From assembly GCA_023957245.1 (NCBI GenBank), contig JAMLHJ010000003.1, positions 1-64,000 of the forward strand: DNA of 64,000 nt, written 5' to 3'. The notes below the pieces were generated by a model, which saw nothing but the letters and a program-made list of their open reading frames with translations, had not been told where the DNA came from and searched no databases. The first letter of the stretch is position 1. Each line of letters begins with the position of its first letter. This DNA is from Chitinophagales bacterium (GTDB lineage: Bacteria > Bacteroidota > Bacteroidia > Chitinophagales > JADIYW01). Both the position numbers and the translations under genes were made by a program. This document shows positions 21,592 to 24,909 of the stretch, in pieces.

Positions 21592-22264
21592 CAATGTCAT
21601 TTAGTTAAGAGAATATATTATATTAGATTCTTTCTGAATGACACGAATCAATCTATTTTTAAAGGAGAATGTCATGCTGTTAAGCATCTATTTATAAAAC
21701 AGTCTAACCATGAGATTCTTTCAGAACAATATATTATAGTTTTGTTCGTATGTTAAGCACACAATGAGCGTCTATCGAAATGCACATCTTAATATCAAAT
21801 AATTACATCTTTAATATCGTATTGTTTATGATTGTATTTAATATATTTATATAATTGAAAGATATTTTGTGTACATAACTACTAATAAAAAATAAAACAG
21901 TGCTATATACTGGAGTAACAAACAATTTAAAAAGAAGAATGGAAGAGCATCGTAATGATTCTACTTTTAATAAATCTACATTTGCAGGAAAATATAATTG
22001 TTACCACCTAATTTATTTTGAAGAATACGCACTTGTTAATGATGCTATAAATAGAGAAAAAGAGATTAAACTTCTTAATAGGGAGAAGAAGGAAAGTTTA
22101 ATAAACATTCTAAACCCTAAATGGGAATTCTATACTTTGTAAAGTATTATGCTGAATGCATCTATAGACCCTTACAGGGTGACAACAGTGTTGTTGATGT
22201 CATTCGTACTCTGATGCTGTTAAGCATCTTGAAATTCATTAAAATTCTTAACTAAACGACATTG
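21592..22264. mobile_element. TIR-bounded element A carrying a GIY-YIG remnant
   Basis: The ends are inverted: CAATGTCATTTAGTTAAG (21592-21609) and CTTAACTAAACGACATTG (22247-22264). They are flanked by TTTTAGCAAT (21582-21591) and CTTTAGCAAT (22265-22274), a 10-bp direct repeat with one mismatch that looks like a target duplication. Inside are the hairpins ATGCTGTTAAGCAT (21674-21687 and 22214-22227) and ACAACAGTGTTGT (22182-22194), plus a decayed GIY-YIG nuclease gene. It shares its ends and several internal landmarks with the elements at 1-169 and 24299-24835. No transposase is present. Confidence 0.72.
21854..22142 (+). pseudogene. GIY-YIG endonuclease, decayed at the 5' end
   Basis: The intact part (GTG at 21900 to 22142) encodes LYTGVTNNLKRRMEEHRND, the YIG-side motif with its Arg, and the conserved REKEIKLLNREKKESLI and NILNPKWEF of the single-domain GIY-YIG family. 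The GIY-side motif lies upstream in another frame (ERYFVYITTNK, 21857-21889). One A too many in the A6 run 21887-21892 breaks the frame, and the expected start codon reads ATT at 21854. With both lesions the catalytic VYI strand is lost, so the product is probably inactive. It lies wholly within element A. Confidence 0.75.
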
Positions 22265-24191: not shown

Positions 24192-24298
24192 TTTGAAAAA
24201 GATAGAGATTTTCGTCACGAAACGAATATATGAAATTCCTTAATAATAGAAAATAAAATAGTTATTCAGCCAATAAGCGAATAGAAGAAATCTCTTTT

Positions 24299-24835
24299 CA
24301 ATGTCGTTTGGTTAAGTAATTACTTGACTTAGATTCTTACAAAAATCGGAGATTCGGCGGAGTTAATGACGCGAAATAAATCATGCTGTAAGCATCTATA
24401 GTTAATGCTGTATAGTAATGAACCCTTTACAAGGTGACGAAGTTATATAGATAGAATTACACATTGCGAATGTGTCCTGCACCATAGATTTTGATGCTGG
24501 GCGCCCACTATACGAAGAAAGCGTAATTTCTTCAACTGTTTGAGACGAAGTCGAGTTTTGAAGAAATAGCTTTCAAGTATTAAGTGGGTCAGCGAAAAAT
24601 CCGGTGCTGGTCACTGAGCTTGTCGAAGTGCTTTTGCATACTTTTTCTTCTAAAGAAAAGTATGAAGAGGAAACTTAATAACCACTAGCGGTTGAGGTTC
24701 TTGAAACTAACCGCATAATAAGTAAGGGTTTACGCAAAGGACACGAAGTTGAATGAAGTAATGAAATAATGTGCCAGAAGTACTATGCTGTTAAGCATCT
24801 CTAAATTCATTAAAATACATAACTAAACGATATTA
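24299..24835. mobile_element. TIR-bounded, hairpin-rich element B
   Basis: The left end is CAATGTCGTTTGGTTAAG (24299-24316); the right end is AACTAAACGATATTA (24821-24835), a mutated inverted copy. A perfect 10-bp direct repeat AATCTCTTTT flanks it (24289-24298, 24836-24845). It has no gene. Internal hairpins include ATGCTGTAAGCAT (24383-24395), CACTGAGCTTGTCGAAGTG (24612-24630), CATACTTTT...AAAAGTATG (about 24638-24666), GCGGTT/AACCGC (24688-24714) and ATGCTGTTAAGCAT (24785-24798). A long nested stem at about 24504-24596 contains the GTTTGAGACGAAGTCGAG palindrome. Confidence 0.72.
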
Positions 24836-24901
24836 AATCTCTTTTTGTAAATTAAAGTTGAATTAATCAAATGAGGTATTCTAAAATTAGGTTTTAATCC
24901 G

Positions 24902-24909
24902 TATCTTTG
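24902..24909 (+). promoter_or_regulatory. -7 box (TATCTTTG) of prs-rplY
   Basis: TATCTTTG matches TAnnTTTG and lies 25 nt upstream of the prs ATG. No clear TTTG -33 element is seen at the expected distance. Confidence 0.5.

Follow-up and report, generated by a model that had tools for sequence, protein, structure and literature searches.

ERIC, NEMIS and bcr1 are long structured MITEs of ~100–200 bp that can fold into robust hairpins. They are named as MITEs in the same work that treats the REP/REPIN and RPE repeats (GTAG and CGTC superfamilies), which have stems of 5–13 bp, are multi-copy, intergenic and hairpin-forming, occur in several phyla and are found as singles, inverted pairs and clusters (PMC3733652). 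Another repeat with a U/A-rich hairpin is the Flavo-1 RNA (RF01705) of Bacteroidota, whose copies in F. psychrophilum lie in sense and antisense without preference (PMC9723704). IS-derived bacterial MITEs, e.g. BrickBuilt of Porphyromonas gingivalis, are short and gene-free, share their ends with an insertion sequence (IS) of the same genome, are flanked by target duplications, lie between genes and are able to trap other repeats (PMC4596501). Here, we describe a block upstream of prs that is like BrickBuilt in all these respects and whose interior carries a repeat, hereafter the core, with the listed general traits of REP and RPE repeats and, as in Flavo-1, a U/A-rich hairpin. With a probability of roughly 0.85, the block is an IS4-type MITE moved by an IS4 transposase and carrying an independent structured, REP-like repeat.

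The block (24289–24845) lies in a window of 64,000 nucleotides from a Chitinophagales bacterium, on contig C17 of a genome of 3.09 Mb in 23 contigs (G000); features are on the forward strand unless stated otherwise. An earlier note had described it as the second copy of a gene-free, hairpin-rich element family with a perfect 10-bp flanking repeat. Indeed, the same 10 bp, AATCTCTTTT, stand at 24289–24298 and 24836–24845 and enclose a 537-bp MITE (24299–24835), in which we found no open reading frame of at least 60 codons. Its left terminal inverted repeat CAATGTCGTTTGGTTAAG (24299–24316) is identical at 16/18 positions to the left end of an IS4 element elsewhere in the genome, while the right one, TAATATCGTTTAGTTATG (24818–24835, reverse strand, read inwards), agrees at 14/18 positions both with this IS4 end and with the left end of the MITE itself. 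Since the two ends of the MITE differ at 4/18 positions, this copy may no longer be movable. A search for an empty site corresponding to this copy found none.

The IS4 element in question is an intact insertion sequence of 1404 bp, whose ends match those of the MITE and which is flanked by an exact 10-bp duplication, GGGTAGATTG, of the same length. It codes for a transposase of 440 amino acids, which scores 184.4 bits with the IS4 model NCBIfam NF033592 (cut-off 115) and matches Pfam DDE_Tnp_1. Ends common with an IS, the length of the duplication, the IS4 transposase and the occurrence in several copies without an own transposase are thus all found, and on the strength of the ends and the 10-bp duplication common to both elements the block is very probably a non-autonomous IS4-type MITE. 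In the proposed mechanism, the IS4 transposase would bind the 18-bp ends, excise the unit and insert it at a target cut with a 10-bp stagger. The genome also contains a second IS4 subfamily with other ends, represented by a near-identical pair (C17:84548–85891 and C19:154694–156037) with DUF4372 and DDE_Tnp_1 domains.

Counting of the terminal pattern at up to three mismatches revealed 27 sites in the genome as compared to six for a reversed-pattern control. Nine end pairs and one near-pair bound elements of 134–673 bp in addition to the 1404-bp element, giving a MITE family of about ten members whose interiors are unlike one another. Five elements have the same 10-mer on either side (the MITE at 24299–24835, the elements on contigs C8, C19 and C21, and the 1404-bp element), and agreement at 9/10 positions is seen in three more, that is the sibling in the window and the elements on C20 and C5, the latter compared by eye; the C2 element has a 9-bp match offset by one base, and in one 134-bp element the flanks agree at 6/10 positions. 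It could be argued that inverted ends next to a 10-bp repeat arose by chance, as intergenic regions of this AT-rich kind are mosaics of several repeat modules in G000. However, the same ends with duplications of 9–10 bp recur elsewhere in the genome at several sites, one of which encloses an IS4 transposase gene; this recurrence refutes the explanation, which we regard as highly improbable. When counted in two sister species, the terminal pattern stayed within the background given by the control; the MITE family is lineage-specific.

The other copy in the window is a sibling of 673 bp (21592–22264), which has the ends and a duplication agreeing at 9/10 positions; the block is, as the earlier note had it, a copy of a mobile family. 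The sibling contains a GIY-YIG reading frame (21900–22142; Pfam GIY-YIG, E 8.5e-11), the N-terminal part of which apparently lies in another frame. The MITE at 24299–24835 ends 99 bp before the start codon of prs. In G012, a genome of the same genus, the MITE is absent, whereas a promoter-like −7 box of prs, TATCTTTG, which was found by pattern and lies outside the MITE (24902–24909), is conserved together with the leader behind it, and the BLAST match to G012 starts just upstream of this box. The earlier note had placed the block just upstream of the prs promoter and suggested that transcription through it could matter; the former holds, whereas read-through into prs would not be needed, because a conserved promoter-like box is present downstream of the MITE.

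As a MITE, the block is of a common kind. More unusual is what it carries: a hairpin of ~180 nt that has kept its pairing through large sequence turnover and is absent from Rfam 15. Most BLAST matches to the block reach only its middle, and aligned copies have sharp borders and variable flanks, delimiting a core at 24477–24668 (covariance model R1, 164.2 bits, E 1e-35) that consists of a long imperfect hairpin and a 3' hairpin. The genome holds 40 matches to the core, about 26 of them near-complete; 20 of these 26 lie outside MITEs and six inside, while the 134-bp and 153-bp family members as well as the 673-bp sibling lack it. Therefore, the hairpins noted earlier are real but belong mostly to a separate repeat and not to the MITE family, and the MITE interior carries one copy of this older repeat as cargo. 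The GAGCTTGTCGAAG palindrome singled out in the earlier note is located in an insert, TGGTCACTGAGCTTGTCGAAGTGC (24608–24631), present in 11 of the 26 near-complete copies, the remainder having GATTC instead. The core next to prs is of this long version and closest to free copies (97.9%), whereas the other five MITE-borne cores are of the short version, which indicates either that the core entered MITEs on two or more occasions or that gene conversion exchanged it between them. As several contig ends fall within core or MITE sequence (C4:5–42, C11:69–121, C17:6–33, C21:214327–214382), copies in this genome are probably undercounted. Adjoining the core at ~24688–24751 is a further repeat module (AACCGC...ACGCAAAGGACACGAAGT), and like modules stand beside most core copies of this genome.

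The long nested stem that had been proposed at about 24504–24596 folds as RNA with a z-score of −5.4, and none of 200 shuffled sequences folded as well. In the consensus, a single long imperfect hairpin, conserved at its CUGUUUGA/GAGUUU apex, is followed by the U/A-rich 3' hairpin CATACTTTTTCTTCTAAAGAAAAGTATG (24637–24664; helix 7), which has conserved U-A pairs. The two apex strands, CTGTTTGA (24536–24543) and GAGTTT (24553–24558), are near-invariant over copies and species, and the apex, in which a tandem GA adjoins a small stem, is reminiscent of a kink-turn whose loop is enlarged. Relatives of the core in sister species (73% identity in G012; 77–87% over parts in G011) fold alike, with z-scores of −6.5 and −9.8, respectively. 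When the three species were aligned with plain MAFFT, 20/52 pairs already showed changes on both sides; this alignment is free of the bias of model-made alignments, which lean towards the structure of the model. R1 found matches in 13/295 genomes of the class, and in the 38 sequences from this search two-sided changes affect 46/52 pairs; pairing is kept in 92.7% of cells, with a covariation score of 0.633 as compared to 0.158 for shuffled and at most 0.146 for slid sequences. Finally, in 39 copies from ten genomes outside the set from which the refined model R2 was built, two-sided changes were seen at 50/52 pairs (score 0.718 versus 0.187). Sequences diverge strongly between species while the pairing is retained, and across phyla, too, it is the pairing rather than the sequence that is conserved. 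The structure is almost certainly real, and its shape is probably recognised by something. Two of the checks proposed in the earlier note, covariation over copies and a genome-wide copy count, thus turned up what could have been missing, namely a conserved secondary structure and further copies.

The core has a far wider range than its carrier. R2 matched 75/395 genomes of the phylum, about a fifth, and 45/171 genera. Among the matches listed, many phyla have the apex pattern, a genome often containing several instances of it; examples are Lachnospiraceae, Peptoniphilus, Alkaliphilus, Nitrospirota, Deltaproteobacteria, Campylobacterales, Elusimicrobia and Patescibacteria. In the loci with this pattern, R2 gave 69 matches at E ≤0.01; as these loci were picked by the apex motif, conservation of the apex there is not independent evidence, whereas that of the outer stems is. 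When copies from different loci were compared in Nitrospirota and Deltaproteobacteria, most pairs had only a unit of ~155–190 bp in common (L163 and L211 represent one locus present in two related genomes), and such a shared unit with unrelated flanks would fit a dispersed repeat. At four loci of Deltaproteobacteria and Thermodesulfovibrionales (L214, L172, L197, L174), the hairpin is closed by TGTTGCC/GGCAACA and complementarity continues into the flanks, as if an older palindrome or terminator held the units in its loop. No Rfam 15 family exceeded its gathering cut-off over the core in G000 or at 15 loci from related genomes, and at 17 loci from other phyla hits were confined to Clostridiales-1 and NiCo, away from the core positions. 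A search by motif letters retrieved no relevant earlier description from the open-access literature, and a description elsewhere is possible. A phage or plasmid origin was dismissed, as the apex pattern had one match in viral contigs and the element none in plasmids.

What, then, is the core? The earlier note had suggested a structured RNA, and indeed the core might be a small RNA gene or cis-acting RNA that turned multi-copy and is merely spread by the MITE. The strong covariation speaks for this possibility, and G-U cells outnumber A-C cells in the stems (60 versus 32 in A2, with the first pair left out; 50 versus 32 in A4), suggesting that one strand matters; a one-strand signal, however, is also expected from recognition of single-stranded DNA. 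In many genomes, moreover, the loop of the 3' hairpin is complementary to sequence before the U-run and the two vary in step (CUUGAU/AUCAAG, CUUGAC/GUCAAG, GUGCG/CGCAC), which points to a pseudoknot. The mean helix is 5.22 versus 4.22 in shuffled sequences and above all 500 shuffles, the effect size being rough since the set (n=67) is mixed with some hairpins other than cores and contains hits on either strand; in the genus of G000 this complementarity is lacking.

The genomic setting argues against the RNA. Core copies are mostly intergenic and occur in both orientations relative to genes; between tandem genes, those with and against the direction of transcription are about equal over all loci (in G000 three with versus five against). 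By raw count, 13/26 cores of G000 lie between convergent genes. In the array at L291, each copy follows a co-oriented gene, as would suit an RNA; the role in 3'-UTRs that this array prompted us to consider was not upheld at other loci. There is neither an Rfam family nor a constant gene neighbour. Thus, the structure of the proposed RNA is borne out while its nature as a transcribed regulator is rather doubtful, and we favour, at about even odds, a REP-like DNA repeat, because the cores are intergenic and have no consistent orientation to genes. Clusters occur as well: at L290 (2277–4370, genome G482), six cores stand in tandem at ~300–490-bp spacing between two ordinary genes, and inverted pairs 25–125 bp apart, reminiscent of REP dimers, are found at L296 (2446–2896), L300 (2002–2468), L176 (7248–7628), L153 (13–411) and L165 (2633–3076). 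An integron-like cassette array was discarded for the clustered cores, as the reading frames at L290 and L291 look like ordinary chromosome.

A REP-like DNA repeat would be a selfish hairpin: some enzyme would recognise it in the form of single-stranded DNA (or RNA) and copy it in trans. This reading is the weakest step of the overall proposal. By analogy with REP elements, a Y1 (IS200/RAYT-like) transposase comes to mind, as the size class, intergenic place, inverted pairs and multi-phylum range of the core resemble those of REP families (PMC3733652), and at L329 (1013–2343, genome G284) an IS200-like Y1 gene lies beside a core apex between two cores. The same IS, however, also occurs without cores (L301). 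REP membership would also have the core flank its own Y1 gene, whereas a clear core was near only one of 30 Y1 loci examined, an ambiguous case, and near none of the four in G000. Y1 transposases were present in 17/20 core-positive versus 11/20 core-negative genomes examined, but some core-bearing, even core-rich, genomes have no Y1 match, and we consider this mover improbable. A GIY-YIG nuclease was rejected, as G000 has one small GIY-YIG frame only, the one within the sibling. Neither enzyme class, Y1 or GIY-YIG, could be linked to the core. Knowing what copies or binds it would account for some of the repetitive DNA between genes in these genomes, a question that the covariance model and the pair counts make testable.

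Taken together, the REP-like repeat carried by the MITE could tentatively, at somewhat less than even odds, be assigned to an undescribed structured mobile family that crosses phyla, with a kink-turn-like CUGUUUGA/GAGUUU apex and, for many lineages, also a 3' pseudoknot whose U-rich strand would lend itself to a U.A-U triple helix, a family that would be spread by a candidate enzyme and sometimes carried by other transposons, here an IS4 MITE. As compared to MITEs of the BrickBuilt type, the block has IS4-type ends, 10-bp duplications and a structured cargo of far wider range than the MITE. Flavo-1, speF and RAGATH-7 gave sub-threshold matches only and were rejected as identities of the core; the Flavo-1 match (16.7 bits, E 0.55, cut-off 42) extends over no more than the 3' hairpin plus a few bases beside it. 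REPs are palindromes of 20–40 bp with an unpaired GTAG or CGTC tag, a size from which the full core departs at ~170–190 nt, and in contrast to REP and RPE repeats the core of 110–190 nt contains internal loops, is conserved at its apex and includes a second hairpin. In length and in folding into robust hairpins it resembles ERIC, NEMIS and bcr1. None of these, however, is known beyond single genera or families, whereas the pattern of the core crosses phyla.
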